Positions 54,473 through 61,419 are shown, numbered from the stretch's first letter. The stretch is DNA of 64,000 nt from Candidatus Manganitrophus morganii (GCA_021651055.1 JAJHOH010000001.1:2046001-2110000), one strand, 5' to 3'. A program made the numbers and translations. Notes: generated from the sequence alone by a model not told the origin.

Positions 54473-54819
54473 GGGGGCGATCGGATTCGACGGGGATAAA
54501 GAGGTTAAGGAACGCATGCCGAGGTCCCATTGGGCTCGTTAAACAAATGGGAAAAACATAATTGCTAATGAACAATTAGCTCTCGCTGCCTAAACGCAGT
54601 GACATCGACTTTCCGTCGCCTGTGCGGGGGGAAGATGCCAGATAGCAGGCTGGCCTGACTCTTCGCCTTGGGGAGTTGGGTGAGATCTTTCGAGGCTAGC
54701 GGAAGAGGGAGCCTGTCTCTGGGCGACCTTGGACGCGAACTCCAAAATAGAGACTAAGCATGTAGTGTTCTTTTTCTGAATATCTTCGGACGCGGGTTCA
54801 ATTCCCGCCGCCTCCACCA
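54473..54819 (+). ncRNA. ssrA: Transfer-messenger RNA (tmRNA)
   Basis: The 347-nt RNA starts GGGGGCGATCGGATTCGACG and ends in a tRNA-like TGGTTCAA-type arm (GGGTTCAATTCCCGCC) and CCTCCACCA with an encoded CCA. The 5' GGGGGCG pairs with 3' CGCCTCC to form the acceptor stem. The tag frame begins at GCT 54564 and ends at TAA 54591-54593, reading A-N-E-Q-L-A-L-A-A. It rescues stalled ribosomes with SmpB and marks proteins for proteolysis. The AT-richer gene block starts right after its 3' end, a common integration site. Confidence 0.97.
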
Positions 54820-54824
54820 ATTTG

Positions 54825-54857
54825 AAGAGCCCGGGTAACTGGGCTTTTCCTTTTTTA
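54825..54857 (+). terminator. Terminator of ssrA
   Basis: AGAGCCC and GGGCTTTT pair around GGGTAACT, followed by CCTTTTTT, just behind the tmRNA 3' end. Confidence 0.75.
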
Positions 54858-54931
54858 GGAAGCCCCGCCCGCTCCTCCTCCCGACTCAATCACGGAACTC
54901 CGGCCAGTCTGATCGGTGGGTGGTGACGTCA

Positions 54932-54960
54932 TTGACTTCCTTCAGATCCTCGTTTAAAGT
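54932..54960 (+). promoter_or_regulatory. Candidate promoter of the PurZ-like operon
   Basis: TTGACT (54932-54937), 17-nt spacer, TAAAGT (54955-54960), with the first gene beginning about 36 nt downstream. A second weak -10-like GATAAT is at 54966-54971. Confidence 0.4.
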
Positions 54961-54995
54961 GTCCCGATAATATCACCAACAGTTATATTTTTTGT

Positions 54996-56708
54996 TTGAC
55001 AGAAAGGCCAAAATCCCGCTATTCTTCCCTTAACAAACACCCGGTTGGATTAAGCCTGTTCCAGTCAATTTGGCTCAGAGGGAACTTGGCTGTTGAGAAA
55101 GAAATAATTCATTCCAAGGGAGCACTCCCTACCCTCGATTCTATCCTCCCCCGAACATTTGTCCATGTTCCTGGGATTGGTCCCATAAAAGAAAAGTCTC
55201 TCTGGAAAGACGGGATCACCTCCTGGCAACAATATCTTAATCTCTCCAGACAAATGGAATTTTCTTTTCGCCTTCCAAACACGACGTATGACCTCATCGC
55301 GCAATCAGAAGAAGCCCTGAAAAAAGAAGATGCGGAATTTTTCAGAGACCACCTTCCGCGTGAAGAATGGTGGAGGCTGTTTCCGCATTTTGAGTCACGA
55401 ACAGTGTTTCTGGATATCGAAACCACTGGTCTGTCCCACTACTATGATGAGATTACGCTTTTGGGTTTGTATGGCGGTGAATCCAATAAGATGCGGGTGT
55501 TCCTGTCCGGACACAATCTCGATCAGATTTCGGACATATTGAGTCGCTATTCTATTGTGGTCACTTTTAACGGAACTCTTTTTGACCTTCCCTTTCTGAA
55601 AACGAAATTTCCGTCGCTAAGACTCCCTCCAATTCACTTAGATCTTCGTTACATACTTAAGCGGTTAGGATATGCAGGAGGGTTAAAACAAATTGAAGAA
55701 ACACTAGGACTGCAACGCAGTAAGAAGATTTCTTCAATTGATGGTCTTGGTGCGACCGTGCTCTGGGCACGTTATGTCAGAGGCGAGATCCAAGCGCTAG
55801 AACACCTCATTCGCTACAATGCGGCGGACATTACGAGTTTGCAGACACTATTACGGTTTAGCTATAAGCAGTTGGCAGCCCGTCTTTTAAATGGTGCGAG
55901 TAGCCAACCCTTCCAACCGCGTTTGCAGCGTCCAAAGAAAGTCTATATTCAAGTAAAAAGGGTCAATGGCTCGCGTGTTCAGATCGTGGTTGACCGTGTA
56001 AAGACCCTTCTAAAATTTAAAAAAATAGAGAAGCCGCTAATCACCGTTAATGATCTTTTGAAGAAGATATCTGGTAGTAAGAATCTTATGCCCAGAGCGA
56101 TTGGAATTGACCTGCGAGCGTCCGAAATCCGCCCGACGGGTTGGGCCTTGCTTGATGGTAATACTGCGGACACGAAGCTGGTTAGAACAGATGAACAGAT
56201 TATTACCGAGACAGTTCGCTATCACCCCGATATCATCTCGATTGATTCTCCCCTGAGTTTGCCGACGGGACGTTGTTGCACAAAAGACTCGTGCAAGTGC
56301 CGAGAAAAAGGTATTTTGAGGGAGTGCGAGCGGACACTCTGGAGAAGAGGAGTCAGAGTCTTTCCATGTCTATTACCTAGCATGCAGGGTCTCACTGAAC
56401 GCGGGATACGTCTTGCTGAAAAATTCAGAAAGCTCGGTTACAATGTTATTGAGAGCTATCCGGGGGCAGCCCAGGATATCATGAGGATCCCAAGAAAGAA
56501 ATTAAGCTTAGGCGATCTAGGGTTGGGATTGAGCGCTTTCGGCATCGAAGGGGATTTTCTTTCGAAGGAAGCAAGCCATGATGAGTTGGATGCGATTACA
56601 TCGGCCGTTGTCGGCTACTTCTACCTCTCAGGAGACTACGAGGCGCTTGGAAATGATTCTGAAGAATACTTGATCATCCCAAAACTAGACCGATCTTTAT
56701 CCCAGTAG
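54996..56708 (+). CDS. Fusion of YprB-type DEDDy exonuclease and DUF429 RNase H-like domain
   Basis: The 570-residue protein joins two nuclease folds. Residues about 50-290: helix-hairpin-like FVHVPGIGPIKEKSLWKDGI, then a DEDDy exonuclease with D140 and E142 (FLDIETTGL), D197 (FNGTLFDLPF) and Y274/D278 (YNAADITSL), as in YprB. Residues about 366-550: DUF429 predicted RNase H-like domain with D372 (AIGIDLRAS), D417 (SIDSPLSLP), E486 (ESYPG) and HDELDA (528-533). A Cys cluster C427, C428, C433, C435 may bind zinc. The start is probably TTG 54996 but is not certain. It is 16 nt ahead of the PurZ-like gene. AT-richer than the flanks. Confidence 0.85.
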   Translation: MTERPKSRYSSLNKHPVGLSLFQSIWLRGNLAVEKEIIHSKGALPTLDSILPRTFVHVPGIGPIKEKSLWKDGITSWQQYLNLSRQMEFSFRLPNTTYDLIAQSEEALKKEDAEFFRDHLPREEWWRLFPHFESRTVFLDIETTGLSHYYDEITLLGLYGGESNKMRVFLSGHNLDQISDILSRYSIVVTFNGTLFDLPFLKTKFPSLRLPPIHLDLRYILKRLGYAGGLKQIEETLGLQRSKKISSIDGLGATVLWARYVRGEIQALEHLIRYNAADITSLQTLLRFSYKQLAARLLNGASSQPFQPRLQRPKKVYIQVKRVNGSRVQIVVDRVKTLLKFKKIEKPLITVNDLLKKISGSKNLMPRAIGIDLRASEIRPTGWALLDGNTADTKLVRTDEQIITETVRYHPDIISIDSPLSLPTGRCCTKDSCKCREKGILRECERTLWRRGVRVFPCLLPSMQGLTERGIRLAEKFRKLGYNVIESYPGAAQDIMRIPRKKLSLGDLGLGLSAFGIEGDFLSKEASHDELDAITSAVVGYFYLSGDYEALGNDSEEYLIIPKLDRSLSQ

Positions 56709-56724
56709 CTCTGTTCAGGAATCC

Positions 56725-57756
56725 ATGCCTCTTACGGTTGTAGTTGGCGGACAATTCGGTTCCGAAGGCAAGGGGAAGATCGTTTCCTACCTTGCCCTGC
56801 GGGACAATGTAGACATTGTAGTCCGTTGTGGTGGACCCAACTCAGGCCATACCGTCGATTATCGCGGACAGCGATACGAGCTTCGAAGCCTGCCAGCCGG
56901 GTTTATCAATCAACGAACCCGTCTTCTCCTTGCTGCAGGTTCACTCATCAATCCTGAGATTCTACTGACCGAAATAAAAATTGCGGGGATTGATCCTCAA
57001 AGGGTGGGGGTCGATCGAAACGCAGGGATCATCTCCTCTCTCCAAAGCGAAGAAGAACGGTCACTCTCTCTGAGAGATCGGCTGGGATCAACTTTGTCCG
57101 GAACCGGAAGCGGCGTTGCGAACCGTGCGCTCAGAAAACCTGATTTTAAGCTGGCGAAGGACAGTCTAGAATTACAGGGTTTCCTAACAGATGTTTCAGA
57201 AGAGGTGAACGGCGCGCTAGATAGGGATGGGAAGGTTATCATTGAAGGTACACAGGGTTTTGGCCTGTCGGTGTACCACTCATCGCATTATCCTTATGCG
57301 ACCAGTCGCGATACTACTGCAAGCGGGTTTCTAAGTGAAGTAGGTGTTAGTCCCCGGCTCGTTACCGATATTATAATGGCAGTTCGGACCTATCCAATCC
57401 GCGTGGCAGGTAATTCAGGACCTCTGGCCAAGGAGGTCACATGGGAAGAAATTCAGAGAAGAAGCGGTTACCCTACGGAAATCAAGGAGTATACGACAAC
57501 CACTAAAAAACTCCGGCGAGTGGGACTTTTTGACATAGAACAAGTAAAAAGAGCGGCAAGAGTTAATCGGCCGACCCAAATTGCACTGCATGGAGCAGAT
57601 TACCTATCATATACAAACAAATCAAAGACAGAACTTGATAACCTATGCATAGAAAGTCAAAAGTTTATCGCATTCGTGGAGAGAGAGACTAAGACACATG
57701 TGAGTTTTATTGGTACGGGCCCGGCCAACGAAGAGATTATAGATCTAACACTATGA
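56725..57756 (+). CDS. PurZ-like adenylosuccinate synthetase homologue
   Basis: The 343-residue protein is a PurA-fold GTPase/ligase but about 90 residues shorter than PurA (~430). Family motifs: VVVGGQFGSEGKGKIVSYLA (8-17 region), GGPNSGHTV with His42, SGTGSGVANRALR, EGTQGFGLSV with HYPYATSRDTT, and KKLRRVGLFD. The catalytic Asp of PurA (GDEGKG) is Ser13 (GSEGKG), the change I associate with phage PurZ, which makes N6-succino-2-amino-dAMP from dGMP for 2-aminoadenine DNA. Residues and length thus favour a PurZ or PurZ0-like enzyme over housekeeping purA. It overlaps the next gene by ATGA. Substrate is inferred only. Confidence 0.82.
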   Translation: MPLTVVVGGQFGSEGKGKIVSYLALRDNVDIVVRCGGPNSGHTVDYRGQRYELRSLPAGFINQRTRLLLAAGSLINPEILLTEIKIAGIDPQRVGVDRNAGIISSLQSEEERSLSLRDRLGSTLSGTGSGVANRALRKPDFKLAKDSLELQGFLTDVSEEVNGALDRDGKVIIEGTQGFGLSVYHSSHYPYATSRDTTASGFLSEVGVSPRLVTDIIMAVRTYPIRVAGNSGPLAKEVTWEEIQRRSGYPTEIKEYTTTTKKLRRVGLFDIEQVKRAARVNRPTQIALHGADYLSYTNKSKTELDNLCIESQKFIAFVERETKTHVSFIGTGPANEEIIDLTL

Positions 57757-58790
57757 GTCAACCAAGAAATATACTTCCAGATAGTTATAAACAACCAGCG
57801 CCAACCGTATCAGAGAAGGATTTTTGGGTAGATCCAGATCCAAAATCCACGGGGCTTTTACTTTCAGATCGAATAATATTTTATCGAGAGAAAGTGAATT
57901 TGATTCATCCTTTCGATCTCAATTATGTCGAGCCTGCATCATATACGCTTCATGCGGGGGGAGAGTATCTAATCTATACCGAGGGGAAAAAAAGAGTATC
58001 GGGAATTTTAGACGAAGGTAAATTAGAAATTGAGATACCTCCAAATGGATTAATCTATATTCGGTTTATGGAATATGTGAATATACCAGCCTATATGATT
58101 GCGAGATTTAATTTACGAGTTAAACAAGTTTACCGAGGGCTACTTTTAGGAACTGGTCCTCAAGTGGAGCCCGGCTTTAGAGGGCATCTTGGCTGTCCTA
58201 TTCATAATTTTACAGATGAGGCAAAAACTATTAGGTTTTTTGAACCCATCGTTACGATTGATTTTGAGAAAACTACCCCTTTTGGCGAAAATTTCTTTAG
58301 CGGTAAAAAGGATGAGGAATTAACTAACGAGATGTTTCAGCGAATACCCCGTGGTATGATCACAGTTACCGGGCTAAACGACCTTCCTTGCAAAGTCTTT
58401 ACGAAGAATAGTCCAGATAGATCGCTTCAAAATTACTTGCCGCCTGGAGAGAGTGTTCGCAGCTCCGTGTTCGAATTAGAACAAACTGTCAGGAGGGTCA
58501 AAGAGACTGTTCGTCGGTTCGAGATTATAATTTCAATTGGTGCCCTTGCCCTACTTGTCGCCATGGCTGGACTTTTCTTTAATGCTTATTCAAATTTAAA
58601 GAATGACATTGTTACGTTAAGTAAGTCGGTTGGAATTCTGGAAGGAGCAGCAGGGGCGGCACGAACGAACTCATCCGCAGCAGTTCAGCCTAATACCCAA
58701 GTTGCATCGCCAACTTCTCCACCAGCAAAAAGCCAGCAATCCTCTCCACCACTCCGGGATAACACCTCAACTACTGAAAGTCCGAAGTAA
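57753..58790 (+). CDS. Membrane-anchored dCTP deaminase/dUTPase-fold protein, probably inactive
   Basis: Residues about 40-175 follow the DCD/dUTPase fold: NYVEPASYTLHAGGEYL, PPNGLIYIRFMEYVNIPAYMIARF, then PQVEPGFRGHLGCPIHNFT. In active DCD the last segment carries the catalytic Glu (..LEFYN/LELSN); here that position is Pro149 (GCPIHN), so deamination is unlikely. Residues 232-255 look coiled-coil, a membrane helix covers about 257-278 (EIIISIGALALLVAMAGLFF), and the tail is Pro/Ser/Thr-rich. It may be a nucleotide sensor fixed to the membrane. ATGA overlap with the PurZ-like gene shows coupled translation. Confidence 0.82.
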   Translation: MSQPRNILPDSYKQPAPTVSEKDFWVDPDPKSTGLLLSDRIIFYREKVNLIHPFDLNYVEPASYTLHAGGEYLIYTEGKKRVSGILDEGKLEIEIPPNGLIYIRFMEYVNIPAYMIARFNLRVKQVYRGLLLGTGPQVEPGFRGHLGCPIHNFTDEAKTIRFFEPIVTIDFEKTTPFGENFFSGKKDEELTNEMFQRIPRGMITVTGLNDLPCKVFTKNSPDRSLQNYLPPGESVRSSVFELEQTVRRVKETVRRFEIIISIGALALLVAMAGLFFNAYSNLKNDIVTLSKSVGILEGAAGAARTNSSAAVQPNTQVASPTSPPAKSQQSSPPLRDNTSTTESPK

Positions 58791-58804
58791 CTTAATAAAA
58801 CATA

Positions 58805-59431
58805 ATGATTAGAGACATAGAAAAACTAAATACTTATAGATTTCTATCCATTGAAGGTTGTATGGGTTCAGGTAAGACAACTCTTGCAAAACATTTAGCG
58901 GATGCCATTTTAGCTAGCCCGCTCATTGAAGAGAGCGGTCGTCATCCTTTCATCAAAGAGTTCTATGTGGCGCCTGAATCTTATGCAGTTGAAACCGAGA
59001 TTGCTTTTGTTCTGCTGCACTACCATCAAATTCTTCGAGAGAAGCGGGCTGGACTATTCAATGGGACAGTCGTGAGTGACTTTGCTATGGACAGAGATTA
59101 TATATTTTCAACCCTTACCCTAAAAGATCCCGCGGATTGGGAACTGTTCGAAAACACATATAATGTTTTGAAGAAACGGCTTCCTATTCCCGATATACTA
59201 ATTTATCTTAGGGCGCCAGTGGATTTTTTAGCAAAGCGGATAGCACAACGCGGAAGGGATTATGAGAAAATTATGACGCGAAGCTATCTTGAAGCGGTAA
59301 AGACAGCCCTCGACAATTACTTTCTCAAAGAATATAAGGGGAAGATCATTATTCTTGATGCCCCGGACCTGGACAGTTCTGTTAATCCCACCTACGTTGA
59401 TACAGTCATCAAGCAGTTACATATAAGTTAA
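58805..59431 (+). CDS. Deoxynucleoside kinase (dGK/dAK-type)
   Basis: The 208-residue protein has the P-loop SIEGCMGSGKTTLAKHLA (Gly18-Thr25), a conserved FYVAPESY-type segment, SDFAMDRDYIF in place of the DRS/ERS motif, and the lid RIAQRGRDYEKI. The pattern and size match the deoxyadenosine/deoxyguanosine kinases of the dNK family. It would make dNMPs from deoxynucleosides, possibly feeding or recycling the product or substrate of the PurZ-like enzyme. It starts 14 nt after the preceding gene and ends the operon. Confidence 0.85.
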   Translation: MIRDIEKLNTYRFLSIEGCMGSGKTTLAKHLADAILASPLIEESGRHPFIKEFYVAPESYAVETEIAFVLLHYHQILREKRAGLFNGTVVSDFAMDRDYIFSTLTLKDPADWELFENTYNVLKKRLPIPDILIYLRAPVDFLAKRIAQRGRDYEKIMTRSYLEAVKTALDNYFLKEYKGKIIILDAPDLDSSVNPTYVDTVIKQLHIS

Positions 59432-59444
59432 CAACTCAGTTGCG

Positions 59445-60842
59445 TTATCCTGCTCCAGCCCTACGGATTTGATCAGGGCTAATTACTAAACGACCGTTTT
59501 TTCGTTCAGTGTAGGGGATTTTATCCTGCTCTAGTCCAAACCACCCGTACAATTCTGAGATAAGGTCAAATGCCACAATACCTGGGTCTAAGTCGGTGCT
59601 CCTTTTCGTAATGGTCACTTGAGAATCCGGAGCGTTGCGGATATCCGTTCCGAATTCCCACCCAAATGTGCCTATCGGACCTGGGATAAGCCCACAAGGC
59701 ATCCCATCTCGTGTCATGTTAAGTAACTCCAGTCGATATTCAATGCTTTGGGGATGCGGCTGAGCGTTTGCTGAAACCTGCCTGTTCAGTTCAGCAAATA
59801 AATATGTAGATTCAGCCAGGACAAGAGGATTAATACGAAGCGCACCGCGAGGCCTTCCCCAGCTTAAGAATTCCTCATCTCCTCGGGTGGCAAAGATGAG
59901 CGTTCCATTTCGCCACAGATCAAGAATTCGATATTTAGGATTTACCGCTCGTCTAAGTTGACCCCTTACGATCTTTGGTGTCTCACCGATAGTCAAATCG
60001 AATCCGCTTGGTCTCAGTTCCGGCGGATTTTTAAGTAAACGCACAATCTCCGCATCACTTGCCTGAAAGAGCGTTGGTATATCGACTGCTTCGATAGGTG
60101 TTGCCGCAAGGATGAAAATTGGTTGCGTCTGGAGGTCTACTGCAATCAGTGCTTCATTTCTTCGATCGTCTAATAATTCTTGTATATTCTGTTGAAGAGT
60201 AATATTTGCTTTCTGAGACTGGCCCGCCATAAGCTGCTGTAGTGTTTCTTGAATTTCGTTATATTTCTTGTCTAGGGAGTCAAACCGGAGACCATCCCTT
60301 ATTAAGGAATGTAGTTCTTGAACTGACGTCGGCGGTATATTGTCTCGCCTGCGTTCGACATAACCAAATACGATTTCGATTTGCTTGCCCCTGCTATCAA
60401 TGGTTCGGGTTATCAAGAAAGGGCGTCTGGTGGAGGCTTGAGAGGGAACATGAATAGCAACGACTCCCTTCTCTTTATCGGCACCGGAGGGAAACCAGCG
60501 AATATCAACCTGCTGCAAAGGTGGATAGATCCAAGACTGGAGGATTTTATGGTATTGGTCTTGGTTCACTAAGCTCTGTATAAAAGGATTGACCGTTGTA
60601 ATTTCATCTCCAAGGTGCGTAGGATGCCGCTCTGTCTTAACCCCTAAGAGAACAAAACCTCCATCGGCGTTCGCAAGTCCGGATATATCCTTGGCAAACT
60701 CTTGTTTCTGATGATCTTGTCCAATCTGATAGGGTGCGTCTTTACATTCCAGTTGTGCATCCTCTACAGTTCCAATAAATTTATTAAAATCACCAGAATC
60801 CAAAAGAGACCGGATCTCATTTAAACTGAGATTTTTAGGCAT
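59445..60842 (-). CDS. AlbA_2/Schlafen-type ATP-binding domain protein
   Basis: The 465-residue protein has an N-terminal AlbA_2 (Schlafen-like) domain with QLECKDA (about 30), EFAKDISGLANADGGFVLLGV (49-69 region) and an acidic/basic middle. The C-terminal ~280 residues match nothing I recognise and may sense a target. AlbA_2 domains occur in transcription regulators and in several anti-phage systems. It is convergent with the PurZ-like operon, 13 nt from the dNK stop, and has the same AT-richer composition. AAAGGAA is upstream of the ATG. Whether it belongs to the operon's function is unknown. Confidence 0.82.
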   Translation of the reverse strand: MPKNLSLNEIRSLLDSGDFNKFIGTVEDAQLECKDAPYQIGQDHQKQEFAKDISGLANADGGFVLLGVKTERHPTHLGDEITTVNPFIQSLVNQDQYHKILQSWIYPPLQQVDIRWFPSGADKEKGVVAIHVPSQASTRRPFLITRTIDSRGKQIEIVFGYVERRRDNIPPTSVQELHSLIRDGLRFDSLDKKYNEIQETLQQLMAGQSQKANITLQQNIQELLDDRRNEALIAVDLQTQPIFILAATPIEAVDIPTLFQASDAEIVRLLKNPPELRPSGFDLTIGETPKIVRGQLRRAVNPKYRILDLWRNGTLIFATRGDEEFLSWGRPRGALRINPLVLAESTYLFAELNRQVSANAQPHPQSIEYRLELLNMTRDGMPCGLIPGPIGTFGWEFGTDIRNAPDSQVTITKRSTDLDPGIVAFDLISELYGWFGLEQDKIPYTERKNGRLVISPDQIRRAGAG

Positions 60843-60893
60843 CGATAATTTCCTTTGGTTTAGACTTTGTTACCGCCTTAATGCTGATCGCCG

Positions 60894-61418
60894 CTATAGG
60901 CTGGCGGTCGTCTGGTGCCGGATCGGACGGAACAGGGCCTTATCAAGACCCGATTCAAAATCCAGCAGCGCCCGTTTCCGATCGAGGCCGCCGGCGTATC
61001 CGGTGAGGGCCCCGTCGCGGCCGACGACCCGATGGCAGGGGACGATCAGCGAAATCGGATTGCGTCCTGTCGCCGCGCCGACGGCGCGCATGCTCGATGG
61101 CGCGCCGATCCGGGCTGCCAGCACCGAGTAGCTTTGCGTCGCGCCGAACGGAATCGCCGCGATTGCCTGCCAGACCCGGAGTTGAAAGGGGGTTCCTTTG
61201 AACCGGATCGGCAGATTAAACGTTTTCAGTTTTCCCGAGGTGTAGGCGGCGATCTGGGCCTCGGCGTCGCGAAACAGTGGGAGTCCCGGATCTCGCTTCC
61301 AAGGGGTTGCGTCCGGGGCATACTTCTGACCGACGAAATAGAAGCCGGTGAGTACAGCGCCGTCCGAGACCAACAGGATCGGCCCCAGCGGCGAATCAAT
61401 ATCGGTATAGAGGTTCAT
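60894..61418 (-). CDS. ogt: Methylated-DNA--protein-cysteine methyltransferase
   Basis: The 174-residue protein removes alkyl groups from O6-methylguanine onto its own Cys. The active site is LIVPCHRVVGRDGALTGYAGG, and RVWQAIAAIPFGATQSY marks the DNA-binding helix region. Length and arrangement are of the Ogt/Ada C-terminal type. The ATG at 61418 follows AGGGG; a slightly earlier ATG would overlap the preceding cupin gene. It marks the return to GC-rich core sequence after the AT-richer block. Confidence 0.93.
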   Translation of the reverse strand: MNLYTDIDSPLGPILLVSDGAVLTGFYFVGQKYAPDATPWKRDPGLPLFRDAEAQIAAYTSGKLKTFNLPIRFKGTPFQLRVWQAIAAIPFGATQSYSVLAARIGAPSSMRAVGAATGRNPISLIVPCHRVVGRDGALTGYAGGLDRKRALLDFESGLDKALFRPIRHQTTASL

Positions 61419-61419
61419 C

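Follow-up and report, generated by a model that had tools for sequence, protein, structure and literature searches.

Why should a bacterial chromosome carry a homologue of PurZ, known as a phage enzyme that begins the synthesis of the DNA letter Z (2-aminoadenine), in one operon with a nuclease, a membrane protein and a kinase? The question is raised by four genes of Candidatus Manganitrophus morganii, which lie in a stretch of 64,000 nt (GCA_021651055.1 JAJHOH010000001.1:2046001-2110000), called the window below. Gene 1 (54996..56708, + strand, like the other three) encodes an exonuclease/DUF429 fusion (Pfam RNase_H_2 and a weak DUF429 match, with an alignment of 33 sequences), and gene 2 (56725..57756) a PurZ-clade homologue of adenylosuccinate synthetase (PurA/PurZ family, E 2.6e-53). 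Gene 3 (57753..58790) encodes a protein of the dCTP-deaminase (DCD) fold with one transmembrane (TM) helix (Pfam DCD E 9e-8, AlphaFold, Foldseek and hydropathy), and gene 4 (58805..59431) a deoxynucleoside kinase (Pfam dNK E 1.8e-22, with dNK matches in the PDB). The spacings are 16 nt, an ATGA overlap (-4) and 14 nt. The GC contents of genes 1-4 are 46.1, 48.4, 41.7, and 41.0% (45% for the operon overall) compared to 58-59% on either flank. These spacings, compositions and profile matches confirm an earlier note on this DNA, which had described a single operon of these families, AT-richer than its surroundings.

We propose that the operon is a mobile chromosomal module in which a PurZ-type synthetase would make a 2-aminoadenine-type deoxynucleotide, coupled to a receptor or enzyme of the DCD fold at the membrane and probably used in phage conflict; we give this reading, taken as a whole, an even chance. 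Its first element is gene 2. The motif GGQFGSEGKGK places Ser13 (codon 56761..56763, +) where PurA has its catalytic Asp13. A 2026 survey found Ser at this position in all 147 phage PurZ sequences vs 99% Asp in PurA (PMC12884076). Among 86 gene 2 relatives, 76 have Ser, nine have Gly and one was not read, although one scan pattern includes the Ser motif and so partly fixes the Ser count beforehand; the neighbour counts given below are unaffected. The Gly13 relatives include archaeal and acidobacterial ones (L035, L036, L037, L039, L040, L041, L044, L048, and L050 in our numbering of loci). After the conserved RV, gene 2 has the PurZ-type loop RVAGNSGPL vs RVG--AGPF in PurA. With respect to the residue positions of S-2L PurZ (PMC8342488), Thr stands at the T273 position in gene 2 and in 79 of the 86 relatives, and the Q308 position of gene 2 is Asp, as in PurZ0 and PurA. 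The best solved sequence match is Pyrococcus PurA (2d7u), and the protein has the short archaeal architecture within the PurA superfamily. A separate full-length PurA is encoded elsewhere in the host genome, and 18 of 20 other operon-bearing genomes likewise have their own, the remaining two being draft genomes. The gene 2 enzyme probably uses deoxyguanosine monophosphate (dGMP) as substrate.

The phylogeny points the same way. In a maximum-likelihood tree, 62 PurZ/PurZ0 rows of chromosomal, plasmid, viral-contig and phage origin were split from 13 PurA rows with a support of 100/99. Ser13, the loop and this position agree with the earlier description of gene 2 as PurZ-like and not an ordinary PurA, and, together with the other PurA that the genome encodes, Ser13 and the tree speak against a plain PurA copy. 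The monophyly of the chromosomal rows alone was rejected by the approximately unbiased (AU) test (p 7e-5; p 0.025 with four close viral-contig rows counted in). The same test did not reject a single clade formed by phage PurZ together with PurZ0 (p 0.24), so one transfer into phages and several are indistinguishable. The placement of PurZ0 was weakly supported (73/65). On four viral contigs (L004, L005, L007, and L008, one of them 312 kb), PurZ is nearer to the PurZ of chromosomal operons than to the PurZ/PurZ0 of known Z phages. No DatZ, MazZ or DpoZ was found in the operon or in its flanks within the window. The statement that these phage companions are absent thus stands for the window and has to be qualified for rhizobial relatives, in which DatZ-like HD proteins lie beside PurZ. 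A copied phage Z pathway was rejected, since the companion genes are missing and the tree, with phage and chromosomal sequences in one clade and no clade of chromosomal sequences alone, points the opposite way; the earlier view of a chromosomal system is borne out.

In the recent survey, the PurZ group comprised 147 sequences from phages and just four from archaea (PMC12884076). A collection of 84,980 species genomes, scanned with a PurZ alignment, yielded 404 bacterial and archaeal relatives, and the neighbours were counted for the best 80 of these. The nuclease was found at 66 of the 80 loci, the DCD protein, usually with a TM helix, at 65, and dNK at 24. Other neighbours were a family that we call C4 (17 loci), an AAA+ protein replacing DCD (6) and adenylosuccinate lyase (5). 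When only the 50 loci with >3 kb on each side were considered, DCD was present at 42 and the nuclease at 39, and a nucleotide kinase of some kind was present at 42 of 56 well-flanked loci. The gene set is spread over about twenty phyla of Bacteria and Archaea, including Nitrospirota, Pseudomonadota, Acidobacteriota, Bacillota, Chloroflexota, Cyanobacteriota, Planctomycetota, Methanobacteriota, and Promethearchaeota. Because the same neighbours recur across so many phyla, the set is more than a chance arrangement, and the refuting outcome named in the earlier note, genes that are rarely together, was not observed. Its occurrence within a phylum can be sparse: the gene for the DCD-TM protein is present in 4 of 296 genomes of the window's phylum, and one genome of the same genus is without it.

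Several variants of the gene set were observed. At L056, L060, L064, L068, L069, and L108, PurZ is followed by an AAA+ protein with weak IetA and TRIP13 likeness and there is no DCD protein. The C4 family (~250 aa, MQNRYVGD..., DPDNG motif) occurs at L033, L036, L055, L084 and 13 more loci, usually where dNK is missing; its fold was modelled with confidence and gave no confident PDB match, only a weak methyltransferase likeness. A rhizobial plasmid variant (L026, L027, L029, and L030) combines a YfbR-like HD protein, a kinase-PurZ fusion, DUF7002 and a protein of ~457 aa, and such variants in places adjoin AbiE, SIR2 or toxin-antitoxin genes. A further plasmid of Rhizobium leguminosarum (L028, 5375-11628) carries a cluster of FolE, a PurA-like protein with Asp13, PurB, QueE, an IMPDH-like protein and QueC, which looks like a 7-deazapurine pathway.

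The second element of the proposal is the protein of gene 3. The core of its AlphaFold model has a pLDDT > 90, and Foldseek matched it to dCTP deaminases and DCD-type dUTPases (E 7e-12 to 1e-9), with dUTPases of the DCD superfamily as the closest folds. The dCTP-deaminase model TIGR02274 gave it 38.9 of 92.8 bits. The position of the catalytic Glu138 of E. coli Dcd is occupied by Pro149 (codon 58197..58199, +, placed by the alignment of relatives), and Pro was found there in 42 of 42 relatives. An active dCTP deaminase was rejected on this exchange; judged by its residues, the protein is not a deaminase, and the earlier term pseudo-dCTP-deaminase was well chosen. The phosphate-binding motif RSS is changed to RFN. 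The Asp of the VDPG motif (motif 3) is kept in 39 of the 42 relatives and is Glu in the window protein. R118, G129, P140, P149, and N152 are invariant in the family, and these preserved residues suggest that the protein binds or processes something. A TM segment was predicted at residues 258-276 (58524..58580, +; Kyte-Doolittle 2.66 over 19 residues) and is present in 63 of 66 long relatives. That the protein acts as a receptor is a tentative assignment, which we hold to be a little short of an even chance. A scan of viral contigs with gene 3 alone as query returned nothing, and a scan with the gene 3 alignment returned seven distant phage DCD proteins, none with PurZ. These stand-alone DCD-fold proteins (L160-L166) have a C-terminal TM segment in six of seven cases and sometimes lie near lysis-type genes.

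The remaining two genes encode the nuclease and the kinase. In gene 1, the RNase_H_2 domain, a DEDDy exonuclease (55404..55853, +), scored 110.1 bits (E 1.4e-31), above the Pfam cut-off of 22. The second domain (56103..56681, +; RNase-H-like) scored 19.6 bits, a weak match below the DUF429 cut-off of 23, and is called DUF429-like for this reason. Both active sites are invariant in the alignment of 33 sequences, with five exonuclease residues (D140, E142, D197, Y274, and D278) and five acidic residues of the DUF429-like domain (D372, D417, E486, D529, and D532). Where gene 1 starts is uncertain: the open reading frame begins with TTG, and most orthologues begin at about residue 50, near 55143. 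The N-terminus appears HhH-like, as read from a GIG motif. Unlike the window protein, the nuclease protein at 40 loci has an extra P-loop kinase domain. At L059 and L068, the exonuclease domain is swapped for a PolX-like HhH and PHP part placed before the DUF429 and kinase domains. Gene 4 matched dNK (PF01712) with 80.6 bits, compared to a Pfam cut-off of 27, and contains the P-loop GCMGSGKTT.

From these parts the following pathway can be proposed. The exonuclease and the deoxynucleoside kinase, with the fused nucleotide kinase in relatives, would provide deoxynucleotides, dGMP among them, or act on them. The PurZ-like enzyme would convert dGMP and aspartate to N6-succino-2-amino-deoxyadenosine monophosphate (dSMP), the adenylosuccinate lyase of the host, operon-encoded at a few loci, would convert dSMP to 2-amino-deoxyadenosine monophosphate (dZMP), and kinases would carry dZMP to the diphosphate dZDP and the triphosphate dZTP. 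The DCD membrane protein would bind a product, or process a deoxynucleoside triphosphate (dNTP), through its conserved non-deaminating pocket and would act at the membrane. The likeliest role would be conflict with phages or plasmids, in which the odd nucleotide may be a signal or a poison, comparable to deoxyinosine triphosphate (dITP) in Kongming. A conflict role for the operon, which we consider evenly balanced, fits because of the swaps at both ends of the gene set (exonuclease/PHP and DCD/AAA+), its patchiness, its carriage on plasmids and the defence genes that neighbour it at some loci. A wider version, in which immune signalling throughout prokaryotes uses a 2-aminoadenine-type messenger (dSMP/dZMP/dZTP), made from dGMP that is partly released by the exonuclease and read by the membrane pseudo-dCTP-deaminase, and in which Z-phage PurZ was taken from such cassettes, appears unlikely on balance, if conceivable.

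Several observations weigh against the proposal. PADLOC 2.0 gave no system match, and the operon proteins matched only kinase, DEDDh and DUF429-like models, weakly. Among 94 flanking proteins, PADLOC returned scattered hits to RmrA, capP, type I specificity, IetA and Cas12f, in a scan with no background set. Nine gene 2 relatives carry Gly and not Ser at position 13, and the lyase and dNK are each missing at some loci. The NCBIfam PurZ model NF038379 gives gene 2 236 bits against a cut-off of 300, and because of this score gene 2 is named PurZ-clade and not PurZ proper. The DCD protein, too, could be an enzyme. This last point leads to the main rival, a purely metabolic module for dZTP or a related dNTP, in which the DCD protein would be a membrane-tethered pyrophosphohydrolase, similar to phage DutZ, for the production of dGMP or the removal of dATP, and the product would enter DNA or poison polymerases with no receptor involved. 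The dUTPase-like fold, the VDPG Asp retained in most relatives and the frequency of nucleotide kinases in the gene set agree with such a module, as does the presence of dutZ, a dUTPase-fold gene, in all 98 PurZ0 phage genomes (PMC12884076). However, the RSS motif has become RFN, Glu replaces the VDPG Asp in the window protein, the TM helix is conserved, an AAA+ protein can substitute for DCD, and the gene set is without a DNA polymerase, which makes a solely metabolic role rather improbable in our view.

If gene 2 were instead a divergent PurA that uses inosine monophosphate, the cluster would be an ordinary operon of the purine or nucleotide pool gained by gene transfer. The common superfamily, the archaeal-PurA model, which gives gene 2 356 of 368 bits, and the PurA-like Asp at the S-2L Q308 position would be expected from such an enzyme, but the catalytic Asp13 is lost in 85 of the 86 relatives (one not read, and the scan motif favoured Ser), the loop and the tree position are those of PurZ, a full PurA exists elsewhere in the genome, and purine synthesis has no place for nuclease and membrane partners. 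We regard this explanation as decidedly improbable. A salvage or counter-system against Z-genome phages, in which the nuclease would cut Z-DNA and the other enzymes would recycle or neutralise Z nucleotides, would suit the nuclease-kinase fusions of the relatives; yet recycling needs no dGMP-using synthetase, and the system is present in lineages such as Lokiarchaeota and nitrifiers, for which we know of no Z phages. This explanation is the most improbable of those considered here.

The reading of the operon as a mobile module can also be viewed against its surroundings. A tmRNA gene (54473..54819, +; ARAGORN), which is a landmark outside the system, is also present in a genome of the same genus (G203). 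In a blastn comparison of the window with the sister locus, the matches stop at ~54848 and restart at 61419, and these ends are 28 bp apart in G203, in which smpB and tmRNA are directly followed by the gene found at 61.4 kb in the window. The stretch absent from G203 (54849..61418, approximate borders) is ~6.6 kb long, lies just 3' of the tmRNA gene and contains the operon, a convergent Schlafen/AlbA_2 gene (59445..60842, -) that is AT-rich like the operon, and an MGMT gene. It was gained in the window genome or lost in the same-genus genome, and for the operon and AlbA_2 part the low GC of both favours gain over loss. No integrase was found in the stretch, and no att repeat of the tmRNA end was found at its right border. 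As the same-genus genome is without the stretch, the tmRNA gene may serve as an insertion site. In Nitrospira relatives (L031, L155, and L157), the operon lies behind another gene (rmuC-like) and no dNK gene is shown; the operon therefore enters more than one site. The AlbA_2 gene was rejected as a fifth member of the operon, since it was not seen at other PurZ loci. Sequence comparison shows the operon to be mobile and patchily distributed.

Phage PurZ has a likely cellular source in these hundreds of chromosomal relatives, which sit in a conserved cassette of several genes. They also predict that cells themselves have a use for 2-aminoadenine nucleotides and make them. If the cassette is defensive, it would enlarge the class of signals made from base-modified deoxynucleotides that Kongming opened; if it is metabolic, Z nucleotides, perhaps with Z in DNA, would not be confined to phages. 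The system lends itself to direct testing: there are four genes, the expected product is defined, and the pocket of the membrane protein is conserved.

In comparison with known systems, the single families are present in Pfam, NCBIfam, PHROGs, and PADLOC and the gene set is not, and no description of the set was found in the open-access literature, a scope without Tong et al. (2023) on archaeal PurZ. With this reservation, the set looks like a previously undescribed system. In Kongming, dITP, a base-modified dNTP, is an immune messenger that a deoxynucleotide kinase helps to make (PMC12948488), and the likeness of a base-modified deoxynucleotide made with such a kinase serves as a working idea only. 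Unlike Kongming, the operon is without the KomA deaminase and KomB/KomC homologues, its chemistry is different, and profile scans of its proteins gave no match to a deaminase, SIR2 or HAM1 family. Gene 3 has the fold of dCTP deaminases and DCD-type dUTPases and differs by Pro for Glu, RFN for RSS and the added TM helix. Gene 1 shares with YprB-like RNase_H_2 exonucleases and DUF429 proteins the DEDDy motif and the intact DUF429 acidic residues, but it fuses both and adjoins PurZ, and in many relatives it is further fused to a kinase. Gene 2 resembles the short archaeal PurA of Pyrococcus in length and architecture and differs from it by Ser13, the extra loop and its clade. With the phage PurZ/PurZ0 of phiVC8, S-2L, Wayne, and Archimedes it has in common Ser13, the PurZ-type loop, Thr at the S-2L T273 position and one clade, whereas its family is chromosomal or plasmid-borne, it has Asp at the S-2L Q308 position, as PurZ0 does, and it is accompanied by nuclease, DCD-TM and kinase partners.

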